A stretch of DNA of 47,956 nt from Flavobacteriaceae bacterium (lineage in GTDB: Bacteria; Bacteroidota; Bacteroidia; Flavobacteriales; Flavobacteriaceae). This document shows, piece after piece, positions 24,984 to 36,530 of this stretch (positions are counted from its first letter, which is position 1; each line of letters opens with the position of its first letter). Under the pieces are notes generated by a model. That model saw nothing but the letters and a program-made list of their open reading frames with translations, had not been told where the DNA came from and made no database searches. Position numbers and translations under genes: made by a program. The stretch covers positions 1 to 47,956 of the forward strand of contig JALRBW010000007.1 of NCBI GenBank assembly GCA_023257625.1, given 5' to 3'.

Positions 24984-25580
24984 CTATTTTTTTCTTTTTT
25001 CTAATATTTTAACAATATCCTCTAAACGGTACCCTTTAGCTTGAAGTAAAATCAATAAATGGAAAAGTAAATCAGCACTTTCGTTTAAGAACAAATCCGA
25101 GTTGTTATCTTTTGATTCAATTACTGTTTCTACAGCTTCTTCCCCAACCTTTTGGGCAATTTTATTAATTCCTTTTCTGAATAAAGATGCAATATAACTA
25201 TCGTCTTGATCGTTATGTTTTCGATCGTTTATGGTTTCTTCAAGCTCAGATAAAAACCCGAAGGAGGTTGTGTTTTTTTCGTTCCAACACGTATCTGCAC
25301 CCGTGTGGCATGTAGGGCCCTTAGGGTTGGCTTGAATCAAAAGAGTATCGTTATCACAATCGATGCGAATGTCAACCAGTTCAAGAAAATGACCGCTCTC
25401 CTCCCCTTTGGTCCAAAGTCGCTTTTTGCTTCTACTGAAAAAAGTAACCCGCTGAGTGAGTTGGGTTTGTTGTAATGCTTCGGCATTCATATAGCCCAGC
25501 ATTAATACTTTAGCTGTAGTAGCATCTTGAATAATAGCAGGAACAAGTCCTTCTTTTGATTTAGTAAAGTCTATGTTCAT
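24984..25580 (-). CDS. hisIE: bifunctional phosphoribosyl-AMP cyclohydrolase / phosphoribosyl-ATP pyrophosphatase
   Basis: The 198-residue fusion catalyses steps two and three of histidine synthesis. The N-terminal HisI half shows VLMLGYMNAEALQQT, SRSKKRLWTKGEESGH, the metal-binding DCDNDTLL and GPTCHTGADTCW. The C-terminal HisE half (from about residue 115) has SYIASLFRKGINKIAQKVGEEAVETVIE. Both halves are complete. It is the last gene of the his operon, six bases after hisF. No convincing terminator hairpin is visible behind it. Confidence 0.97.
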   Translation of the reverse strand: MNIDFTKSKEGLVPAIIQDATTAKVLMLGYMNAEALQQTQLTQRVTFFSRSKKRLWTKGEESGHFLELVDIRIDCDNDTLLIQANPKGPTCHTGADTCWNEKNTTSFGFLSELEETINDRKHNDQDDSYIASLFRKGINKIAQKVGEEAVETVIESKDNNSDLFLNESADLLFHLLILLQAKGYRLEDIVKILEKRKK

Positions 25581-25586
25581 AACATG

Positions 25587-26342
25587 TTAAAGTCTAACGG
25601 GAATTTTTTGTTTTTGCAATTCGCTTTTTAGTTCTGGAATGGAGATTTCACCAAAGTGAAATACACTTGCCGCTAAAGCGGCGTCCGCTTTGCCTTCAGT
25701 AAAGGTAGCACTAAAATGAGATATGTTTCCAGCGCCACCAGAAGCAATAATCGGAATATTTACGATTTGTGAAAGTTCGGCTAATGCTTCATTGGCAAAC
25801 CCCTTCTTCGTTCCATCATGATCCATAGAGGTAAACAAAAGCTCACCGGCACCCCGTTGTTCTACTTCTTTTGCCCAATCAAATAAATTTAAAGTTGTGG
25901 GTACTTTTCCGCCTACTAAATGAACTTTCCACTTCCCCTCTATCTGTTTGGCATCAATAGCAACTACGATACACTGACTGCCAAATTGGTAGGCCATTTC
26001 ATCTATCAAATTTGGAGTTTTCACTGCTGCTGAGTTTATGGATACTTTATCCGCGCCATTTTTTAAAAGAATTTCTACATCTTCAAGATCGCCAATTCCC
26101 CCTCCAACAGTGAACGGTATGTCAATGGCTGATGCCACTTTAAGTACTAAAGCTGCAAGTGTTTTTCGTTTTTGCTCTGTAGCGGAGATATCTAAAAAAA
26201 CTAATTCATCAGCATTTTCTGATGCGTACTTAGAAGCCAATTCAACTGGGTCTCCAGCGTCACGTAAATTGATAAAATTGATTCCTTTTACCGTGCGACC
26301 GTTTTTTATATCCAAACAAGGAATTATTCTTTTGGTCAGCAT
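25587..26342 (-). CDS. hisF: imidazole glycerol phosphate synthase subunit HisF
   Basis: The 251-residue (beta-alpha)8 barrel is the cyclase subunit that uses ammonia from HisH to make IGP and AICAR. It starts [20 protein letters not shown] with catalytic D11. [14 protein letters not shown] and SINSAAV follow, then VVAIDAKQ with the second catalytic aspartate, and [13 protein letters not shown] as the C-terminal phosphate loop. It is complete. The start is one base after the stop of the DinB-like gene that sits between hisA and hisF. Confidence 0.98.
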
Positions 26343-26343
26343 A

Positions 26344-26853
26344 TTAAGAATTTGATTGGTTTAAATCCACATTTTTATAAAACCCAAGGTCTTGATTTGT
26401 AAGTTGCTTGATCCAAAAGGCAATTTGACCTACATGATAGGAAAAATGCTCTACGGCATGAAGTACAACTCCTAATCCGGAAAGTGTAAACCCTTGTACT
26501 TTTCTGTATGTAGTATATTCTTTAGCCTCGGTTTTTTGAATTACTTCTACAGCCTGATGTATTGTTCTCTCTAAATGTTCCAATAATTCTTTTTTACTCA
26601 TTCCCCCTTGAATTGAAAATTCTAGGTCACGTTTCCGTACATCGTATTGGCATCCTAGTGAAGAAATAATGTATTGTCTCATGTTTCCACAAATATGTAC
26701 TATTTGATTTCCTAAGGCTAACCCATTTTTTTGAGGATAAAGCCAAAGTTGTTCCTCATCTATACTGCTAAAAGCCAACAGAATCATACGTTGTCCTTCT
26801 CTTAATCTGAAGATGGAATTGTTTTTAAATTCATCAAGTATAAGATTCTTCAT
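26344..26853 (-). CDS. DinB-fold protein embedded in the his operon
   Basis: The 169-residue protein is a DinB-type four-helix bundle with a likely metal triad H53 (in NQIVHICGN), H136 and H140 (in [16 protein letters not shown]). The H-x3-H-x-GQ end is diagnostic for the superfamily (YfiT/DinB, mycothiol-type transferases). It has no signal peptide. Its ATG overlaps the hisA stop by one base (TGATG) and its stop is one base from the hisF ATG, so it is fully built into the operon. DinB-fold proteins have no known role in histidine synthesis. A thiol-dependent detoxification or an unassigned accessory role is conceivable but unproven. Confidence 0.82.
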
Positions 26854-27581
26854 CAGGCTTGATTTAAAATAAATTGTGAAAGTTGTTTCAAAGAAATCCG
26901 GTTTTCATAGATCGCTTTTCCTATGATGGTTCCTTCACATCCCAAATCACGTAATTGAGGTAGTTCTTCAAATCTAGAAATCCCCCCTGAAGCAATTAAA
27001 CGCAATTGGGTTTTCGATAAAATTTGTTGGTATAAATCAAAAGAAGGTCCCATTAACATTCCGTCTTTACTAATGTCTGTACAAATGGAATACACAACCC
27101 CTTGTGCTTGGTATTGGGTTAAAAAATCAAATAATTTTAGTTTGGAGGTTTTTAGCCAGCCATTAGTAGCAATAAATTCACCCTTAACATCTGCACCCAA
27201 AATAATCTTTTTAGGTCCATAAGTAACTAACCACTGTAAAAAAACATCGGGTTGTTTTATGGCTATACTTCCCGCAGTTACTTGATTTGCTCCAGATTCA
27301 AAAGCGATTTTTACATCCTGGTTTGTCTTAAGTCCTCCTCCAAAATCAATTGATAATTGCGTTTGCGTTGCAATTGTTTCAAGGACTTTATGATTGACAA
27401 TATGTTTTGATTTAGCACCATCTAGATCAACTAAATGAAGGTATTTTATTCCATGGTCTTCAAAAGCTTTGGCTACTTCAAGTGGATTTTCATTGTAGAT
27501 TTTTTGAGTTTGGAAATCCCCTTTGGTTAACCGAACACATTTCCCTTCAATGATATCAATAGCAGGTATTATTCTCATCAC
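26853..27581 (-). CDS. hisA: phosphoribosylformimino-5-aminoimidazole carboxamide ribotide isomerase
   Basis: The 242-residue (beta-alpha)8 barrel isomerises ProFAR to PRFAR. It has [21 protein letters not shown] with the catalytic aspartate (D9 counted from the first ATG), [22 protein letters not shown], a [13 protein letters not shown] segment with the second aspartate, and [13 protein letters not shown]. Two consecutive ATG codons open the gene, and either could be used. It overlaps the end of hisH by four bases and the DinB-like gene by one base. Confidence 0.97.
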
Positions 27582-28162
27582 GTTAAGTTCAGAAAATTTT
27601 GTAATACAACCTGACCAGCTTTACTGCTTTTTTCTGGATGAAATTGAACGCCATAAAAGTTTCCTTTTTGAACGGCAACACTATATAAACCATCATAATT
27701 ACTTTGAGCAATAGTTTCAGGTATCACAGGAACAAAATAGGAATGGACTAAATACATATATGTACCTGATGAAAGATGTTCAAAAAGGGAAGACTGTAAA
27801 GATTGAATTGAATTCCAACCCATTTGGGGCACTTTGACCTGAGAAGAAAATCTTTTTACTGTAGCCGATAATATGCCTAGTCCTTTTACATTACCCTCTT
27901 CGGTTTTTTCACATAAGAGTTGCATTCCTAAACAAATTCCTAAAACAGGTTGAGTTAATCGAGGTAAAAGCAAATCTAATTTGTTTTGTTTTAGTTTTAC
28001 CATTGCACTTTGTGCTGCACCTTGCCCTGGAAAAATTACCTTATCAGCTTGCTGAATGGTATTAGCATCGGAGGTTAGAATACTGGTAACCCCTAGCCGC
28101 TCTATAGCAAATTGTAAACTTTTTGTATTTCCTGCACCGTAATCTATGATAGCAATATTCAT
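27578..28162 (-). CDS. hisH: imidazole glycerol phosphate synthase subunit HisH
   Basis: The 194-residue class I glutamine amidotransferase supplies ammonia to HisF. The nucleophile is C77 in [12 protein letters not shown], with H175 and E177 in QFHPEKSS completing the triad. IIDYGAGN at the start and FPGQGAA are family blocks; FPGQGAA replaces the more usual FPGVGAF, but this lies outside the catalytic residues. It starts one base after hisB and overlaps hisA by four bases. Confidence 0.97.
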
Positions 28163-28163
28163 T

Positions 28164-29291
28164 TTATAATACTCCTTTTGTTGAAGGCAAAATCATTCTA
28201 TCTGGGTCTCTTTGTATTGCCATTTTTATTGCTTTTGCAAAGGCCTTGAAAATAGCTTCTATTTTATGATGTTCATTAGTGCCTTCTGCTTTTATATTTA
28301 GATTTGCTTTAGCACCATCAGAAAAAGATTTGAAAAAATGAAAAAACATTTCTGTAGGCATATCTCCAATTTTTTCACGTTTAAAATCAGCATCCCATAC
28401 AATCCAATTTCGCCCTCCAAAATCAATTACAACTTGCGCTAAACAATCATCCATTGGTAAGCAAAATCCGTAACGTTCCATACCTAACTTATCCCCTAAG
28501 ACTTGGTAAAATGCTTCCCCTAATGCAATTGCAGTATCTTCAATAGTGTGGTGTTCATCAACATGTAAATCACCTTTAACATGTATTGTCAAATCCATTC
28601 CGCCATGCCGTGCCAATTGATCTAACATGTGATCAAAAAAAGGTAATCCGGTATCTATTTTGCTTTTACCAGTTCCCTCTAGAGAAATCTCTATACTGAT
28701 TTGGGTTTCATTTGTTTTGCGTTGATATGAAGTTTTTCGGGGCTGTAATTTTAAATAAGTGTAGATTTCTTTCCAAGCTGTTGTACTAAAAACCACAGCC
28801 TTTTGTGCCTCAGTGTTACTTTCTTCAGCTCCTAAAGTGGGGTCGTTAGCGATGAAAATTCCTTGACAACCTAAGTTATTTGCCAATTCCATGTCGGTAA
28901 TACGATCACCTATTACAAAAGAATTTTTAAGATCAAAAATATTAGTGTTCATGTAGTGTGTAAGCATACCCGTTCGTGGTTTTCGTGTTGGCGCATTGTC
29001 TATAGGGAAACTTTTATCAATAAAAACTTCATCAAAAACTACTCCTTCATTTTTAAAACTTTGAATTATAAAATTATGAATTGGCCAAAAGGTTTCTTCA
29101 GGAAAAGAGGGAGTACCTAAACCATCTTGATTAGTTACCATTACAAGACTATATTCTAATTCTTTTGCAATTTTTCCCAAATAAGTAAATACCTCAGGGT
29201 AAAACTCCAGTTTTTCAAAAGCATCGAGTTGGTACCCTTTTGGTTCAATTGCTAAGGTTCCGTCACGGTCTATAAAAAGTACTTTTCTCAT
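28164..29291 (-). CDS. hisB: bifunctional histidinol-phosphatase / imidazoleglycerol-phosphate dehydratase
   Basis: The 375-residue fusion carries steps six and eight of the pathway. The N-terminal HAD phosphatase starts [17 protein letters not shown] (nucleophile D in DRDGT) with [17 protein letters not shown] and [14 protein letters not shown]. The C-terminal IGP dehydratase (from about residue 190) has [35 protein letters not shown] and the [19 protein letters not shown] metal site. I chose ATG at 29291 so the HAD strand follows at once; this start lies 29 bases inside the hisC 3' end. A longer frame exists upstream but would add 18 non-family residues. Confidence 0.97.
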
Positions 29292-30339
29292 GGTATTCTT
29301 CCATATTTTTAAGTGCGTTGAGAAGCGCTTTGTTTTCTTCTGCAAGCCCTACTGTAATTCTCAGTGTATTAGCGCAGCCCCTATTTTTTGATGGATTTCG
29401 AACTACTATTCCACGCTCAATTAATTGATTATAGCGAAGTTTACTGTTATCTACTTTTACCAATATAAAATTTGCATCGGAAGGATAACATTGTTCAATA
29501 AATGAAATTTTAGGGAGTTCAATTTCTAATATATTTCTCTCATTAAGAATATATTTTACTTGTGATTGGACTTTATCTTGTTCATTTAAACGCTGCAAAG
29601 CTGTTCCTATAGTTAAAGAATTTATATTATAGGGAGCCTTAATCCGATTTAAAAAAAGAATTAATTCAGGATGGGCAAATGCCATTCCTAAACGTGCTCC
29701 GGCTAAACCTTGTGCTTTTGAAAATGTTTGACAAACTACAAGATTTGGATAACGTTCCAATTGAAGCACAAAAGACTTTTCTTTTGAAAATTCAACATAA
29801 GCTTCATCTATCACAACCAAACCGGTAAATGAACTGAGAATCTTGTGTAATGTCTCATTATCAAAACTATTAGCCGTAGGATTATTGGGTGTAGGTATAA
29901 AAATTATTTTCACCTTAGGCGTCAATACACTTTTGATTTTTTCAAAATCTATTTGAAAATCACTTGTTAAAGGAGCTTCTACTACACCAACATTATGGGT
30001 TTTAGCCGCTACTTGATACATTCCAAATGTAGGGGGTAAAATTAAAATGGAATCTCTATCAGGCTCACAACAACACATAATGAGCTGTGAAATAAATTCA
30101 TCACTACCATTACTTAAATATAATTTCTGAAGTGCCACCCTTTTCCATTTTGCAATACGCTCTTTTAATTCAACTTGAAGAGGATCTGGATATCTATTTG
30201 AATTTGTTTCAAATGGATTCTCATTTGCATCAAGTAATATCATTTTTCGTCCATGATTTACAAATTCCTCACGTGCAGATTGATATGGCTGTAGGGAAAG
30301 CAAAGAGGAACGTACAAAGGAATTCAAATTAAAGTCCAT
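29263..30339 (-). CDS. hisC: histidinol-phosphate aminotransferase
   Basis: The 358-residue PLP enzyme converts imidazole-acetol phosphate to histidinol phosphate. It has [20 protein letters not shown], the [10 protein letters not shown] strand, [10 protein letters not shown], and the Schiff-base lysine K208 in [18 protein letters not shown], followed by the phosphate-binding arginine. It is complete. Its ATG lies 11 bases inside the end of hisD, and it overlaps hisB by 29 bases, which is unusually long for this otherwise nearly seamless operon. Confidence 0.97.
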
Positions 30340-31621
30340 CAGAAATTTTTTTTAATCGTATTGAAACAGCATTTTTATGCGCTTGTAACCCCTCTGCTGA
30401 AGCCATATGCATTATGGTTTCACCTAGGCCTTTAATTCCCTTTTCACTAATTTTTTGAAATGTAATTGATTTAGTAAAACTATCTAAATTTACCCCACTA
30501 TATTGTTTTGAATAACCATTAGTTGGTAATGTATGATTTGTACCAGAAGCATAATCTCCAGCGCTCTCAGGTGTGTATTTTCCAATAAAAACTGAGCCTG
30601 CATTATGAAGGTTTAAAAGGTATTCACTTTCGTCCTCAACACATAATATATAGTGTTCAGGACCATAAGCATTGATAAAATTTTGTGCTAATTCAGCAGT
30701 TGGCAAACAAATTAATTTAGAATGCTCCAATGCCTTTTCTGCTATAGAACGTCTTGGTAAAGTCATTAATTGATCTTCAATAGCATTTTGAACTTTATCT
30801 AATAAACTTGGTTCAGTAGTAACAAAAATAACTTGACTATCTGGACCATGCTCTGCTTGTGAGAGTAAATCTGCAGCAATAAAATCAACATCGGCCGACT
30901 TATCAGCCATTACTAAAAGTTCACTCGGTCCAGCAGGCATATCTATACTAACATGGTATCTTGTGGCCCATTGTTTTGCTAGAGTAACGTATTGATTACC
31001 CGGACCAAAAATTTTATACACTGAAGGAATCGATTCCGTGCCAAATGTCATTGCAGCAATGGATTGTATGCCACCTACTTTAAAAATTTTTTGAATTCCA
31101 CATAGTGAGGCAGTATATCTAATAACTGCGGGTATTATTCCTGAAGAATTAGGGGGTGTACACAAAATTATCTCACGACAACCTGCAATTTGAGCAGGTA
31201 TAGCTAACATGAGCAGCGTTGAAAATAATGGAGCTGAACCTCCAGGTACATAAAGACCAACTTTTTCAATAGGTCTTTTTTCTTGCCAACACAGAACACC
31301 AGGCTGAGTTTCTACTTGTACTTTTGATGTCTTTTGGGCTTTATGAAAAGCTTCTATATTTCGCTTTGCGCTTTGGATGGAGCGTTGTAAATCAGGAGAA
31401 ATTTCATTCTGTGCTTGTTTGAGTTCAGCTTGATTTACCTCAAGTGAAGAAATTTGAACTTTATCAAATTTTTCAGTGTATTTTTTAACTGCTAAGTCTC
31501 CTTTTTTACGAACTGCACTAAAAACTTCTGCAACCAGAGGTTCTATTTCTGTAAGATTCGCAGTAGGACGTTTAAGTAATCGTTCCCATTGGTCTACTGG
31601 TGGATGAAAAAATCTTTGCAT
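30329..31621 (-). CDS. hisD: histidinol dehydrogenase
   Basis: The 430-residue enzyme oxidises histidinol to histidine in two NAD-dependent steps using zinc. It has KVGLYVPGGSAPLFSTLLMLAIPA, FKVGGIQSIAAMTFGTES, IDMPAGPSELLVMAD, DLLSQAEHGPDSQ (zinc ligands Q and H), the catalytic EHYI region, and GDYASGTNHTLPTNG. The length fits the family. The ATG overlaps the hisG stop by one base. Confidence 0.98.
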   Translation of the reverse strand: MQRFFHPPVDQWERLLKRPTANLTEIEPLVAEVFSAVRKKGDLAVKKYTEKFDKVQISSLEVNQAELKQAQNEISPDLQRSIQSAKRNIEAFHKAQKTSKVQVETQPGVLCWQEKRPIEKVGLYVPGGSAPLFSTLLMLAIPAQIAGCREIILCTPPNSSGIIPAVIRYTASLCGIQKIFKVGGIQSIAAMTFGTESIPSVYKIFGPGNQYVTLAKQWATRYHVSIDMPAGPSELLVMADKSADVDFIAADLLSQAEHGPDSQVIFVTTEPSLLDKVQNAIEDQLMTLPRRSIAEKALEHSKLICLPTAELAQNFINAYGPEHYILCVEDESEYLLNLHNAGSVFIGKYTPESAGDYASGTNHTLPTNGYSKQYSGVNLDSFTKSITFQKISEKGIKGLGETIMHMASAEGLQAHKNAVSIRLKKISDGL

Positions 31622-32472
31622 TATAGAACTATTTTTTCAATTGGACATACTAAAATATCTTCCGCTCCAGCATCTTTTAATTGATCAATTACTTCCCAAA
31701 AATCACCTTCGTTAATTACTGAATGCAGTGAACTCCAGCCTTTCTGTGCAAGGGGTAATACTGTAGGGCTCTTTAATACAGGTAAAATTGAACTAATTGC
31801 TTCTACAGTATTGTTTGGACAGTTCAATAAAATATATTTAGATTTTTTTGCTCTTAATACTGCCTGAATACGAAATTGAAATGTTTTTAATATTGCTTTT
31901 CGTTCTTCACTTATTTTTGGTGATTCAACCAATACGGCTTGAGATTTAGCTATACTTACCACTTCTTTAAGATTATTTTTAAACAAGGTACTACCGCTAG
32001 ATACAATGTCACAAATGGCGTCTGCTAAGCCAATATTAGGAGCAATTTCTACAGAACCACTAATAATATGTAAATCAGCTTTAATCTTGTTTTTTTCTAA
32101 AAATTCATAAACTGTGTTAGGATATGAAGTTGCAATTTTTTTGCCATTTAAGTCTGATAGAGAATTGTATTTAAAACCTTTTGGTACTGCAATTGAAACT
32201 CTACACTTAGAAAATCCAAGGGGTTCAATTATATTTAGATCAGTTCCTTTTTCTGCTAAAAGATTTTCCCCTAAAATGGCAACATCAACTACACCGTCGC
32301 GTAAATATTGAGGAATATCCCCATTTCGTAAGAAAAATACTTCCATGGGGAAATTTCTTGAGGAAGCCTTTAATTGATCTTTACCATTTTCTATAAAAAT
32401 ACCACAGTCTTTTAAAAGTTTTAAGGAATCTTCATTGAGTCGTCCTGATTTTTGTATTGCTAATCGTATCAT
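31621..32472 (-). CDS. hisG: ATP phosphoribosyltransferase, long form
   Basis: The 283-residue enzyme starts the pathway by joining ATP and PRPP. It begins MIRLAIQKSGRLNEDSLKLL and has DVAILGENLL, IATSYPNTVYEFLEK, and the phosphate-binding DAICDIVSSGSTLFKNNL. The extra C-terminal segment (about residues 210-283, SSLHSVINEGDFWEVIDQLKDAGAEDILVCPIE) is the ACT-like regulatory domain of the long HisG, so feedback inhibition by histidine is expected without HisZ. It is the first gene of the operon and is preceded directly by the attenuator terminator. Confidence 0.98.
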   Translation of the reverse strand: MIRLAIQKSGRLNEDSLKLLKDCGIFIENGKDQLKASSRNFPMEVFFLRNGDIPQYLRDGVVDVAILGENLLAEKGTDLNIIEPLGFSKCRVSIAVPKGFKYNSLSDLNGKKIATSYPNTVYEFLEKNKIKADLHIISGSVEIAPNIGLADAICDIVSSGSTLFKNNLKEVVSIAKSQAVLVESPKISEERKAILKTFQFRIQAVLRAKKSKYILLNCPNNTVEAISSILPVLKSPTVLPLAQKGWSSLHSVINEGDFWEVIDQLKDAGAEDILVCPIEKIVL

Positions 32473-32477
32473 AGGTT

Positions 32478-32509
32478 AAAAAAAAACCCGTTTGATTATT
32501 CAAACGGGT
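32478..32509 (-). terminator. attenuator terminator directly before hisG
   Basis: On the minus strand CCCGTTTGA (32508-32500), loop ATAA, TCAAACGGG (32495-32487) form a perfect nine-pair stem, extended to ten by the A-U pair 32509/32486. A run of nine U follows (32486-32478). The U-tract ends five bases before the hisG ATG. This is a textbook intrinsic terminator placed inside the leader of its own operon, hence an attenuator rather than an end-of-gene signal. Confidence 0.9.
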
Positions 32510-32535
32510 GTATAATAGTGAACAAAAACATCCTA

Positions 32536-32592
32536 TTACAACTCGTTTGAGTCGCTGTAAAAATGATGTTGATGTGTTGTTTTAAATTTCAT
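32536..32592 (-). CDS. hisL: his operon leader peptide (attenuator)
   Basis: An ATG frame of 18 codons on the minus strand encodes MKFKTTHQHHFYSDSNEL and stops with TAA at 32536. Three of four consecutive codons (7, 9 and 10) are histidine (CAT), a composition far from chance at this location. It lies between a perfect TAnnTTTG promoter box (six bases upstream) and the attenuator terminator, and is followed 64 bases downstream by the hisG start. The role is to sense charged tRNA-His through ribosome progress. The symbol is given by analogy with enteric hisL; the peptide sequence itself is unrelated to the E. coli seven-His peptide. Confidence 0.87.
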   Translation of the reverse strand: MKFKTTHQHHFYSDSNEL

Positions 32593-32598
32593 CGCGTG

Positions 32599-32630
32599 CA
32601 AATATATTTAATAATTTGTTAAGCAACAAA
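32599..32630 (-). promoter_or_regulatory. his operon promoter (TTTG / TATATTTG)
   Basis: The minus strand has the -7 box TATATTTG (32606-32599) and TTTG at 32630-32627, 20 bases upstream, matching the Bacteroidota -33/-7 pair. Only CACGCG lies between the -7 box and the leader-peptide ATG, so transcription should begin at or within a few bases of that ATG, making the leader transcript leaderless or almost so. Confidence 0.72.
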
Positions 32631-32681
32631 AGAATTTTATTCTCGAACGTATAATTTTATCCTTGTTAAGTAATATACATA

Positions 32682-33500
32682 TTATTGATTTCCTAAGATA
32701 ATGGGCAAACCATCTTTACCATTTCCAATAACGATTATTTTTGCATTGGGTGATTCAGAAAGTTTAAGCGTCGCTTCAATCCCTTTTTCCTGAAGGATTT
32801 TATCTGTTAGAGATGCACTTAAAATTCGGTTAGCCGTTGCTTTTCCCTCAGCATCAATACGTTGACGTTCTGCTTCTTGCTTTGCTTTTTCCAAACGGAA
32901 CTCATATTCTAAAGATTCTTGTTCTTGGCCTAACTTACGCTCAATAGCTTCTTTAATTGCAATTGGTAAAGTTACATCGCGTACCAAAACCGCATTCAAT
33001 TGAATATGCTGGCTATCTACATTTTTTCGAGTTTCTTCAAATATTTCATTTTGAATTGCATCTCTTTTAGTTGAATACAATTGCTCTGGAGTATATCTTC
33101 CAACAACAGAACGTGCGACAGCTCTAATTTGAGGAATTAAAACTATGTTTACATAATTTTCCCCTTTGGTTTGATGTAACAATCCTAATTCTTCGTATTT
33201 AGGTTGATAGAGTACGGAAACATCTAAAGAAATTTCTAGACCATTTGAAGATAAAACTTGCATATTTCCTTCAAAAAACTCTTGTTGTTTAACATTGTAT
33301 ACATACACTTTGTTCCAAGGTGCAATGACATGGAAACCTTCACCTAGAGGAGGATTATCAGTTACTACACCTCCCCCAAATGTTTTGAACAATACACCGG
33401 CTTCACCATACCCGATGTTTATTGAAGATTTTGATATAAAAATTAAGAGTACTACAGCCAGTAATATCACTGGCAATCCGATTTTAGGTAATTTTTGCAT
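32682..33500 (-). CDS. prohibitin/SPFH (Band 7) family membrane protein
   Basis: The 272-residue protein has an N-terminal transmembrane segment (LPVILLAVVLLIFI, residues about 8-21) followed by a Band 7 domain. Blocks include GVVTDNPPLGEGFHVIAPWNKVYVYNVKQQEF, LSSNGLEISLDVSVLYQP, VRAVARSVVGRYTPEQLYSTKRDAIQ and VLVRDVTLPIAIKEAIERKLGQEQE. A helical coiled coil with EKAKQEAERQRIDAEGKA follows. The pattern is closest to prohibitins, which form large membrane rings that scaffold proteases or lipids. It is the last gene of the fabG, sucD, efp, lpx series, 11 bp after fabG, with a 209-bp gap to the his operon. Confidence 0.92.
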   Translation of the reverse strand: MQKLPKIGLPVILLAVVLLIFISKSSINIGYGEAGVLFKTFGGGVVTDNPPLGEGFHVIAPWNKVYVYNVKQQEFFEGNMQVLSSNGLEISLDVSVLYQPKYEELGLLHQTKGENYVNIVLIPQIRAVARSVVGRYTPEQLYSTKRDAIQNEIFEETRKNVDSQHIQLNAVLVRDVTLPIAIKEAIERKLGQEQESLEYEFRLEKAKQEAERQRIDAEGKATANRILSASLTDKILQEKGIEATLKLSESPNAKIIVIGNGKDGLPIILGNQ

Positions 33501-33511
33501 GATAAAAAAGT

Positions 33512-34258
33512 TTAGGTTAACATTCCTCCATCAACATGGAGCACTTGTCCAGTAATATAACTGGATAAATCAGAAGCCAAAAAAACACAAGCATTGGCTA
33601 CATCTTCAGGTTGTCCCCCTCTTTTTAAGGGAATTCCTTCTCTCCATCCTTTCACTATTTCTTCTGAAAGTTGGGTAGTCATTTCTGTCTCTATAAATCC
33701 TGGAGCAATTACATTTGAACGAATATTACGAGATCCTAATTCTAGCGCAATTGATTTAGAAAAGCCAATAATTCCTGCCTTTGAAGCCGCATAATTGGAT
33801 TGACCTGCATTTCCTTTCACTCCCACTACTGAACTCATATGTATGAGCGATCCGTGGCGTTGTTTTAAAAAAGTTCGTTGAACGGCTTTAGTCATATTAA
33901 AGATGGACTTCAAATTCACTTCAATAACTTGATCAAAGTCTTCTTCACTCATACGCATTAAAAGGTTGTCTTTGGTAATTCCTGCATTATTGACTAAAAT
34001 ATCTAAAGCCCCAAAGTCTTCAATCACTTGATCGACCAACTTTTGAGCAGCTTCATAATTTGCAGCATTACTTTGATATCCTTTGATTTGAACACCATAT
34101 GAAGTAAGCTCTATTTCTAGCTGGTCTGCTGCATTTTTATTGTTGCTGTAAGTAAAGGCTACTGCACATCCATGCGAGGCAAAAGTAATGGCAATGCCTC
34201 TACCAATTCCTCGGCTTGCTCCGGTAATCAATGCTGTTTTTCCTGATAACAATTTCAC
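33512..34258 (-). CDS. fabG: 3-oxoacyl-[acyl-carrier-protein] reductase
   Basis: The 248-residue SDR enzyme reduces 3-oxoacyl-ACP with NADPH in fatty acid elongation. It has the TGASRGIG cofactor motif, NNAGIT, the catalytic S143, Y156 and K160 (in SSVVGVKGNAGQSNYAASKAG), and the usual VNVIAPGFIETEM and ITGQVLHVDGGM end. The start is GTG at 34258; no ATG exists in the right place. It lies 15 bp after sucD. The lipid A acyl-transfer steps and FabZ in the same cluster use the same acyl-ACP pool. Confidence 0.95.
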   Translation of the reverse strand: MKLLSGKTALITGASRGIGRGIAITFASHGCAVAFTYSNNKNAADQLEIELTSYGVQIKGYQSNAANYEAAQKLVDQVIEDFGALDILVNNAGITKDNLLMRMSEEDFDQVIEVNLKSIFNMTKAVQRTFLKQRHGSLIHMSSVVGVKGNAGQSNYAASKAGIIGFSKSIALELGSRNIRSNVIAPGFIETEMTTQLSEEIVKGWREGIPLKRGGQPEDVANACVFLASDLSSYITGQVLHVDGGMLT

Positions 34259-34273
34259 GTTACTAATTTTATT

Positions 34274-35146
34274 TTAAGCTAAAACTTCAGCTACTTTCGC
34301 TCCAATCTGTGCTGGAGAATCAACTACGTGGATTCCACATTCACGCATAATTTTTTTCTTTGCGGCCGCTGTATCATCACTACCTCCAACAATAGCACCT
34401 GCATGTCCCATAGTTCTTCCTTTTGGTGCAGTTTCTCCTGCTATAAAGCCTACTACGGGTTTTTTATTACCATTAGCTCTTATCCATTTTGCTGCATCTG
34501 CTTCTAATTGTCCACCAATTTCACCAATCATCACAATACATTCTGTATCAGGATCGTCCATAAAAAGTGCAATAGCGTCTTTAGTTGTCGTTCCGATGAT
34601 AGGATCTCCACCAATACCAATTGCGGTAGATATCCCTAACCCCTCACGCACAACCTGGTCTGATGCTTCGTAAGTTAATGTTCCAGATTTTGATACTATA
34701 CCTACTTTTCCTTTTTTAAATACAAAGCCCGGCATAATACCAACCTTAGCTTCTTCAGGAGTGATTACTCCTGGGCAGTTAGGACCAATAAGAATAGCAC
34801 CTTTTTGTTTTACATATTGAAATGCTTTGGTCATATCATTTACAGGAATACCCTCTGTTATGGCTATAATAACTTTAATACCAGCTTCTGCTGCCTCCAT
34901 AATAGCATCAGCCGCAAAGGCTGGTGGTACAAAAATAATTGAAGTATCTGCTCCTGCTTTTGAAACAGCTTCAGCTACACTATTAAAAACAGGACGATCT
35001 AAGTGAGTTTGCCCTCCTTTTCCAGGAGTAACACCACCAACTAAATTTGTTCCATATTCTATCATTTGTGAAGCATGAAAAGTTCCTTCACTTCCTGTAA
35101 AACCTTGTACGATTATTTTAGAATCCTTGTTGACAAGTACACTCAT
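34274..35146 (-). CDS. sucD: succinate-CoA ligase alpha subunit
   Basis: The 290-residue subunit binds CoA and carries the phosphohistidine of the TCA-cycle enzyme. Motifs are [61 protein letters not shown], and phospho-acceptor H248 in [10 protein letters not shown]. It is complete. The beta subunit (sucC) is not in the window, which is common in Flavobacteria where sucD sits apart in the lpx-efp cluster. It lies 21 bp after efp. Confidence 0.97.
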
Positions 35147-35167
35147 ATTTTTTTAGTTCTATAAAAA

Positions 35168-35734
35168 TTATTCTTTAACGCGTTCAATGTAGCTCCCTTT
35201 TTCAGTATCTACTTTAATCTTATCTCCTTCATTAATAAATAATGGGACATTTATACTAGCCCCTGTTTCTAGAGTGGCAGGTTTGGTAGCATTAGTTGCA
35301 GTATTACCTTTAACTCCAGGTTCAGTATGTATAATTTCTAATATCACACTAGCGGGCATTTCAGCAGACAAAGGAATACCATCTTCTGTATTTATTGAAA
35401 TGGTAACCAGTTCACCCTCCTTCAATAATTCAGGCGCATCTAAAATGGCTTTATCTACACTAATTTGATTGTAATCATCTGTATTCATGAAATGATACAA
35501 ATTGTTTTCGTTGTACAAAAACTGATATTTTTGAGTTTCTACTCGAATATCATCAATTTTATGACCCGCGGAAAAGGTATTATCAATTACCTTACCATTG
35601 GTAACACTCTTAAGTTTTGTACGAACAAATGCAGGGCCTTTTCCTGGTTTAACGTGTAAAAATTCAATTATTTTATAAATATCGTTGTTGTATTTTATAC
35701 AAAGACCTTTTCTAATATCTGAAGTTGATGCCAT
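35168..35734 (-). CDS. efp: translation elongation factor P
   Basis: The 188-residue factor relieves ribosome stalling at polyproline. The N-terminal KOW-like domain has the tip loop KPGKGPAF with K32 at the position modified in E. coli. Later blocks are YQFLYNENNLYHFMNTDDYNQI and the C-terminal GASINVPLFINEGDKIKVDTEKG, the standard EF-P signature. The glutamine usually found after PGKG is replaced by proline (PGKGPA), a feature shared by Bacteroidota. It is followed by sucD and preceded by lpxA. It has its own perfect -7 box only eight bases before the ATG. Confidence 0.97.
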   Translation of the reverse strand: MASTSDIRKGLCIKYNNDIYKIIEFLHVKPGKGPAFVRTKLKSVTNGKVIDNTFSAGHKIDDIRVETQKYQFLYNENNLYHFMNTDDYNQISVDKAILDAPELLKEGELVTISINTEDGIPLSAEMPASVILEIIHTEPGVKGNTATNATKPATLETGASINVPLFINEGDKIKVDTEKGSYIERVKE

Positions 35735-35742
35735 AATGAGTG

Positions 35743-35750
35743 CAAATTTA
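35743..35750 (-). promoter_or_regulatory. -7 promoter box TAAATTTG for efp
   Basis: The minus strand reads TAAATTTG (exact TAnnTTTG) eight bases before the efp ATG, in the 22-bp gap behind lpxA. It suggests efp-sucD-fabG can be transcribed apart from the lpx genes, with a very short 5' leader. Confidence 0.45.
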
Positions 35751-35756
35751 CATGTT

Positions 35757-36530
35757 TTAAAAATATCCTTTCATTAAACCTCGTTTGGATTGTTTAATGA
35801 ATTGTAAAATTAAATCGCGTTCTGGAGAATCGAATTGTTTTGCCTCAATTAAACGCAATGCATTTGTTGTATTTAAATTATTTTGAAAAAGTATCCGGTA
35901 AATCGATTGTATTTCTTCAATTTTTTCAGCTGAAAAACCCTTTCTTCGTAATCCTACCGAATTAACACCAGCGTAAGATATTGGTTCCCTTGCTGCTTTC
36001 ACATAAGGGGGAATATCTTTCCTAACTTTTGACCCACCACCTACAAAAGCATAATCACCAATGGAGCAAAATTGATGAATGGCCACTAATCCGGCAAGGA
36101 TAACATGATTCCCAATTTTTATATGTCCTGCTAAAGTGCTATTATTAGAAAACACACAATGACTTCCTACTATACAATCATGTGCAATATGAGAATAAGC
36201 CATAATCAAATTATCTGTTCCAATAAAAGTTTTTCCAGTTTCTTTAGTTCCTCGATTTATTGTAACACATTCCCTAATAGTGGTGAAATCTCCAATTATT
36301 GCAAATGATTCTTCACCAGAAAATTTTAAATCCTGTGGAATGGCACCAATTACAGCACCAGGAAATACTTTACAGTTTTTTCCAATTCGTGTCCCTGACA
36401 TTAAAGTTACATTAGGGCCAATCCAAGTTCCTTCCCCAATTTCTACATTGTTTTCAATTGTGGTAAAAGAACCTACTTCAACGTTTTTTCCAAGAATAGC
36501 TTTTGGATGAATATTACAGTATGTATTCAT
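35757..36530 (-). CDS. lpxA: UDP-N-acetylglucosamine acyltransferase
   Basis: The 257-residue protein is a left-handed beta-helix acyltransferase that transfers a 3-hydroxyacyl chain from ACP to UDP-GlcNAc, the first lipid A step. Hexapeptide repeats fill residues 4-185. Key blocks are IHPKAILGKNVEVG, GAVIGAIPQDLKF, TIRECVTINRGT, and the catalytic histidine in YSHIAHDCIVG. The C-terminal helical domain has NSVGLRRKGFSAEKIEEIQSIYR. It is complete. It follows lpxC-fabZ by 15 bp and precedes efp by 22 bp. Confidence 0.97.
   Translation of the reverse strand: MNTYCNIHPKAILGKNVEVGSFTTIENNVEIGEGTWIGPNVTLMSGTRIGKNCKVFPGAVIGAIPQDLKFSGEESFAIIGDFTTIRECVTINRGTKETGKTFIGTDNLIMAYSHIAHDCIVGSHCVFSNNSTLAGHIKIGNHVILAGLVAIHQFCSIGDYAFVGGGSKVRKDIPPYVKAAREPISYAGVNSVGLRRKGFSAEKIEEIQSIYRILFQNNLNTTNALRLIEAKQFDSPERDLILQFIKQSKRGLMKGYF

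Follow-up and report, generated by a model that had tools for sequence, protein, structure and literature searches.

The window (the whole stretch of 47,956 nt that was analysed) carries a his operon on its reverse strand, and directly ahead of the first structural gene, hisG, lie a short ORF with clustered histidine codons, several mutually overlapping putative stems and an intrinsic terminator (Table 1). A profile search of the ORFs in the window placed hisD, hisC, hisB, hisH, hisA and hisF, like hisG, above the NCBIfam cut-offs, and the gene order after the putative attenuator is hisG-D-C-B-H-A-F, followed by a last ORF which we, judging by its translation, take to be hisIE. Between hisA and hisF an ORF of 169 aa (26344-26853) gave no NCBIfam match; it presumably resembles DinB-like proteins. 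The ORF at 32682-33500, on the far side of the leader from hisG, showed a weak match to HflK, far below the cut-off. As listed, the ORFs of hisC and hisB overlap (29263-29345), and hisB, listed with a TTG start, probably begins further downstream, its family match not starting until residue 19.

Table 1. Features of the probable his attenuator region and the operon downstream, in order of transcription (window coordinates)
Feature	Position	Strand	Basis
TTTG, possible upstream (-33) promoter element	32627..32630	-	sequence
-7 promoter box TATATTTG, perfect match to TAnnTTTG	32599..32606	-	sequence
Predicted 2-nt 5' UTR, near-leaderless leader transcript	32593..32594	-	inferred from box position
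his leader peptide gene MKFKTTHQHHFYSDSNEL and stop, 18 codons	32536..32592	-	sequence; His leader in 129/130 family loci
His-Gln-His-His codons, predicted stall site	32563..32574	-	best conserved part of the leader peptides
Hairpin 1:2 (protector/pause hairpin), encloses region 2	32539..32554	-	
Region 2, TCAAACGAG, antiterminator 5' arm, 7 continuous pairs (TCAAACG)	32542..32550	-	
AU-rich hairpin, leader stop to terminator	32512..32539	-	RNA fold
Region 3, ACCCGTTTGA, terminator 5' arm and antiterminator 3' arm	32500..32509	-	
Region 4, TCAAACGGGT, terminator 3' arm	32486..32495	-	
T run of the terminator (nine T, the first of which also closes the stem)	32478..32486	-	
hisG, first structural gene, ATP phosphoribosyltransferase	31621..32472	-	TIGR00070 and TIGR03455 above cut-off
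Rest of the his operon: hisD, hisC, bifunctional hisB, hisH, hisA, unassigned ORF, hisF, hisIE-like ORF	24984..31621	-	

The leader ORF begins with an ATG at 32592 and its stop codon ends at 32536, with histidine at codons 7, 9 and 10. The original prediction of an 18-codon leader with three His codons in four was borne out, and the other elements that it named were recovered as well: a six-pair pause hairpin at 32554-32539, which reads CGACTC-AAAC-GAGTTG and in which one of the six pairs is a G-U; a terminator of nine to ten pairs with nine U at 32509-32478, which consists of ACCCGTTTGA-ATAA-TCAAACGGGT (32509-32486) with 10 pairs and a 4-nt loop, followed by nine T to 32478; and a seven-base alternative pairing, TCAAACG at 32550-32544 being complementary to CGTTTGA at 32506-32500. 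The AU-rich hairpin between the leader stop and the terminator was absent from that description.

Folding of the RNA from 32594 to 32478 gave -29.3 kcal/mol, compared with -14.8 kcal/mol (sd 2.8) for shuffled sequences (z -5.2), and none of 200 shuffles was as good. In a consensus scan of positions 25000-36000, 11 terminator-like sites were found where 6.6 (sd 2.1) were expected, the attenuator terminator being the sole one with 10 pairs and the sole one with an unbroken T run directly after the stem. A short His-rich ORF is by itself not beyond chance, as a mean of 1.25 is found in Markov-resampled windows (20 resamplings), and it was rejected as evidence when taken alone; the significance of the locus comes from the combination of elements and from their conservation.

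Upstream of the leader, a -7 box of the TAnnTTTG type was identified. Promoters of this type have a -33 element, for which a TTTG further upstream is a possible candidate. In the promoter map of F. psychrophilum, as given in the part of that paper used here, the TAnnTTTG box occupies -12 to -5 (PMC9723704), and by this rule 32594 is the predicted transcript start, which leaves 2 nt ahead of the leader AUG. Perfect -7 boxes at most 50 nt from the leader were seen at 45 of 129 family loci compared with 5 of 129 in a control stretch, while a relaxed box (at most one mismatch) is found near the leader in 129 of 129 loci but also in 65 of 129 control stretches and is thus a weak signal. With one mismatch allowed, the predicted 5' UTR measures -2 to 4 nt at 45 of the 129 loci, 5-9 nt at 7, 10-22 nt at 72 and more at 5; since relaxed boxes are that frequent in the control stretches, a short UTR is for most loci a prediction only. 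A scan for sigma-70 promoters was uninformative, with 40 found and 39.6 expected. Leaderless mRNAs make up 5.5% in F. psychrophilum according to the same portion of PMC9723704.

Conservation of the leader and of the competing stems

In the family of the source genome hisG was identified in 166 of 199 genomes, and the upstream DNA of 130 of these, the window included, was used, 36 of the 166 being left out. When scanning for ORFs that start with ATG and have at least 2 His in 6 codons, a leader was found at 126 of the 130 hisG loci, again including the window, and three further loci carry a leader with a GTG start, giving 129 of 130; the contig breaks off within the remaining locus. A stricter scan (ATG start, 3 His in 6 codons, 300 nt upstream) retrieved 122 of the 130 family loci and 47 of 60 loci drawn from the class. 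Applied to the reverse strand, the scan gave hits at 1 of 130 family and 0 of 60 class loci, and in the DNA 300-600 nt upstream at 1 of 129 family and 0 of 60 class loci. It was run as a codon-run scan over 18 amino acids (D and E left out), and the next amino acid on the forward strand was Leu, with 14 of 130 family and 10 of 60 class loci. The His enrichment is accordingly in frame and strand-specific. The cluster mostly consists of 3-4 His together in the family, in the window of 3 out of 4 codons, and outside the His run the leader peptide is variable among the relatives.

The terminator is present at all 129 family loci with a leader. In alignment A1, which comprises 76 of these loci (53 were left out to limit redundancy), 99.9% of the cells of the terminator stem are paired, and 6 of its 10 pairs show changes on both sides, with 17 such cells compared with 1.6 in shuffles (0 of 500 shuffles reaching this). 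RNAalifold applied to A1 recovered the terminator alone, and the other stems were therefore tested by other means.

For the antiterminator, 85.5% of the cells in A1 are paired, compared with 16.7-47.8% when the arms are slid by 1-3 columns, and in 73 of the 76 sequences one pair of columns (A-C) does not pair. Its covariation is modest, which within the family is explained by both arms being nearly invariant: both-side changes occur in 2 of 10 pairs, a number reached by 201 of 500 shuffles, and cells changed on both sides number 6 compared with 1.8 expected (0 of 500 shuffles). A comparison with recodings that preserve the peptide, using the codon usage of those among 30 hisG genes that read open, gave a mean duplex energy across the 129 loci of -12.7 kcal/mol versus -7.4 kcal/mol for the recoded leaders, with 102 of 129 loci at p<=0.05. 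The antiterminator of the window is a weak one (-8.8 kcal/mol, 7 pairs), and a fraction of 0.095 of its synonymous recodings do as well, or 0.29 with slightly different segment limits.

Several features of the leader end point to selection on the RNA. The Ala codon following Gln is GCG in 102 of 106 leaders, compared with 77 of 584 Ala codons in the 30 hisG genes. Region 2 is translated in a different frame in the window and at four other loci (L002, L004, L015 and L077), where it yields SNEL, SSEC or SSEL and not QAR, and at three loci (L006, L008 and L067) the ORF ends before region 2, which persists behind the stop. In these comparisons it is the RNA of the leader end that is conserved and not the peptide. 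A search string used to measure the spacing fitted 113 of the 129 loci and missed 16. At 100 of the 113, 8 or 14 nt separate the last His codon from region 2, and at 102 the stop codon follows region 2 by 2 nt; the corresponding distances in the window are 12 and 4 nt. At one locus (L123) the terminator is replaced by a quite different sequence and no matching region 2 was seen in the leader; here the antiterminator may have decayed or been rebuilt.

The hairpin at the leader end beats synonymous recodings at p<=0.05 at 79 of the 129 loci. It is not uniform, 69.4% of the cells being paired in the model tried, and a single five-pair model of hairpin 1:2 was rejected as too rigid. The AU-rich hairpin has a z of -1.8 (p 0.065) in the window and a mean z of -1.58 across the family, with p<=0.05 at only 53 of 129 loci.

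Related elements in the class and before other genes

In a class-wide draw hisG was found in 77 of 168 genomes, and 60 upstream regions, all from other families, were used (17 of the 77 left out). A leader within 400 nt, starting with ATG, GTG or TTG and having three or more His in 6 codons, was present at 51 of the 60 loci and missing from 9, and the terminator was detected by script at 43 of the 60, with 17 lacking it. Many of these terminators are of another type, GGCTTACC...GGTAAGCC, and their leaders contain a matching region 2. The arms occur as matching pairs, CCCGTTTGA with TCAAGCGAG in one family and GGCTTACC with GGTAGGC-like segments in others. A permutation test was performed on the 40 class loci with both leader and terminator, the other 20 of the 60 lacking one or the other by script: the pairing of a leader with its own terminator averages -11.2 kcal/mol versus -9.0 kcal/mol (sd 0.36) for permuted partners, a value reached by 0 of 10,000 permutations in a test that ignores shared ancestry within clades. 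The own terminator ranked in the better half at 34 of the 40 loci and in the worse half at 6. Support from comparison extends to the leader with its His codons, to the terminator and the alternative pairing, and to the way in which these change together from clade to clade.

Tentatively, and with slightly less than an even chance of being right in our judgement, these data may reflect a single ancestral his attenuator throughout the class (presumably Bacteroidia, the original prediction and the TAnnTTTG promoter type pointing to Bacteroidota), the arms of which have been replaced in concert, and which in part of the family is near-leaderless or leaderless so that attenuation would be set by leaderless initiation. 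If true, the persistence of the ancestral attenuator would mean that transcription and translation are tightly coupled throughout the class, and attenuation by leaderless initiation would mean a leader AUG at, or a few nt from, the transcript start in a phylum naturally lacking Shine-Dalgarno sites. That the phylum is without Shine-Dalgarno sequences is stated in the part of PMC6847099 used here.

A search model, R1, built from the 76 family loci gave matches in 169 of 198 family genomes at E<=0.001; matches near E 1e-4 were not trusted. In one genome (L200; genome G138, contig C126) a second copy, near identical to the one at hisG, is situated on another contig, and no hisG was found in the ~400 nt behind it before the contig ends. 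Another genome (L208; genome G027, contig C11) gave no match to hisG and retains the his leader and terminator ahead of a short hisG remnant. Among the ten remaining second or weak matches, a short ORF with 2 His in 6 codons is missing from seven, and two, L224 and L226, look like gene ends. A weak match at L215:1507-1600 (genome G186, contig C189) has the ORF MTDAEHHHFSR and a terminator, and no his gene was recognised near this ORF.

The locus could alternatively hold a translated small protein gene with an ordinary terminator of its own, unrelated to his control. An ORF conserved at 129 of 130 family loci and followed by a good terminator is what such a gene would give, but the peptide is variable outside the His run, its end follows the RNA (the GCG codon, the other reading frame, the early stops) and the complementarity between terminator arm and leader is specific to the clade. 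The element also stands directly before hisG at 129 loci, which were chosen by hisG, and outside hisG one copy without the gene (L200) and one before a broken gene (L208) were seen, 12 further loci having been inspected. We regard a small protein gene as very improbable and the attenuator as the reading to be preferred.

Other amino-acid genes of the source genome were scanned with four Pfam families. Directly upstream of pheA (PF00800; L197:1353-1470, contig C39) a Phe/Tyr-rich leader, MNTTFFYYTNFYYFYTEAGRTL, is followed by a terminator, and directly upstream of a chorismate-binding gene which is cut by the contig end (L196, contig C47) and is probably trpE, a short ORF with a Phe-Trp-Trp run, MNRTVIFLNFWWNTENF, was found together with a terminator at 861-883 of the reverse complement (reverse strand). 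These are probable Phe/Tyr and trp attenuators, as read from the DNA of the source genome alone. No leader with terminator was found at two ILVD_EDD loci and a further chorismate-binding locus (L194), at L195, a fragment without the gene start, or at a homoserine dehydrogenase locus where the DNA may miss the gene start. Given the leaders of pheA and the trpE-like gene, attenuation probably serves several amino-acid pathways in the source genome.

Proposed mechanism and relation to known systems

The element is very probably a ribosome-mediated (leader-peptide) transcription attenuator of the his operon. Of the features of this class, the following were found: a His-rich leader ORF, the his operon downstream, an intrinsic terminator in between and an antiterminator that excludes the terminator and sits where a ribosome could control it. 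The classical ribosome-stalling mode of action proposed in the original prediction is supported by the conserved His leader, the terminator and the alternative pairing, and its expectation that the His frame and the mutually exclusive stems would be conserved in relatives agrees with the leader counts, the paired fractions of the terminator and antiterminator in A1 and the preference of leaders for their own terminator.

In the proposed mechanism the polymerase would transcribe the leader ORF with a ribosome following. With ample His-tRNA the ribosome would pass the His codons to the stop and cover region 2, whereupon region 3 would pair with region 4 and transcription would end at ~32478. With scarce His-tRNA it is expected to stall at codons 7-10 and to disrupt the 5' side of hairpin 1:2; region 2, thus freed, would pair with region 3 as soon as this is made, the terminator 3:4 would come too late and the polymerase would enter hisG. 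If no ribosome is loaded, hairpin 1:2 would hide region 2 and the terminator would form. The probable role of the AU-rich hairpin is to bring region 2 close to region 3 or to slow the polymerase. Since the terminator of the window (-13.9 kcal/mol) is more stable than its antiterminator, the choice between them would have to be kinetic. The response to histidine is one that we infer.

Even less probable than a small protein gene is a T-box or metabolite riboswitch that senses uncharged tRNA-His or histidine and has an incidental His ORF, although a terminator/antiterminator architecture is common to T-boxes. No Rfam 15 family, T-box and His_leader included, matched the window at the gathering score; the best weak match in the region reached 25.4 bits versus the 54 required, and none of the 12 weak matches there is a T-box or riboswitch. 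The T-box covariance model gave no match at E<=5 in 32440-32700. The element is moreover only ~115 nt long, conservation outside the terminator is confined to the His run and region 2, and an incidental ORF sits badly with a His enrichment that is bound to one frame and one strand. Equally remote is a leader peptide that raises hisG translation by coupling or reinitiation, or acts by Rho, with the hairpin secondary: in the window 5 nt separate the T run from hisG, and reinitiation-boosting short leader ORFs have been proposed in several phyla including Bacteroidetes (PMC4833913, in the part used here), but the gap from leader stop to hisG, which is 63 nt in the window and ranges from 63 to 194 nt among relatives, exceeds the 10-16 nt peaks of that proposal, and Rho is unnecessary because the intrinsic terminator is near-perfect and covarying.

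As a ribosome-mediated attenuator, the element defines an RNA family that is absent from Rfam 15 and for which there are enough sequences for a model (R1), and its distribution suggests that classical his attenuation is old and widespread in the class. Classical attenuation depends on a lead ribosome that keeps pace with the polymerase, and the element is for this reason indirect evidence for transcription-translation coupling in a phylum without Shine-Dalgarno sequences.

Amino-acid attenuators have reportedly been predicted by comparison in Vitreschak et al. 2004 (FEMS Microbiol Lett 234:357), the abstract of which is said to mention Bacteroidetes/Chlorobi, and reportedly also in Lopatovskaya et al. 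2010. A search of the open-access literature on attenuation in Bacteroidetes, Flavobacteri and B. thetaiotaomicron, of partial coverage, returned no fuller account of the his case. For F. psychrophilum (2021), clues to leader-peptide attenuation before amino-acid operons have been presented, together with 5' elements upstream of hisG, pheA and others that have no Rfam hit and occur in other genera of Flavobacteriaceae (PMC9723704, in the part used here). The hisG element of F. psychrophilum has the same gene position as the attenuator in the window, whereas a His leader, an antiterminator and a spread beyond the family are not described in the portion of the main text of PMC9723704 considered here. 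Bacteroid-trp RNA (RF01692), listed in a table of PMC2864571 and likened to trp attenuation in a passage of PMC6414381, is likewise a cis-regulatory RNA before an amino-acid operon in Bacteroidetes, but it belongs with another operon and other codons, and the window has no match to RF01692. Excerpts of two further papers deal with His leader peptides in bacilli, none being known to the authors outside Proteobacteria and Actinobacteria (PMC2965389), and with short ORFs of B. thetaiotaomicron reminiscent of leader peptides (PMC7366714).

The idea is thus already in print in outline and the mechanism is classical; new here are the AU-rich hairpin, the predicted start 2 nt before the AUG, the class-wide spread and the probable Phe/Tyr and Trp attenuators. 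In the enteric his attenuator (hisL; Rfam His_leader) a His-rich leader ORF and a terminator before hisG are combined with an alternative pairing that is set by the ribosome, and the same three elements are found in the window. The two differ in that the window has no Rfam match and a transcript start that is predicted to be near-leaderless, and in that its set of stems is simpler; enteric hisL has seven His in a row compared with three of four codons in the window, where region 2 is placed inside the last codons of the leader.
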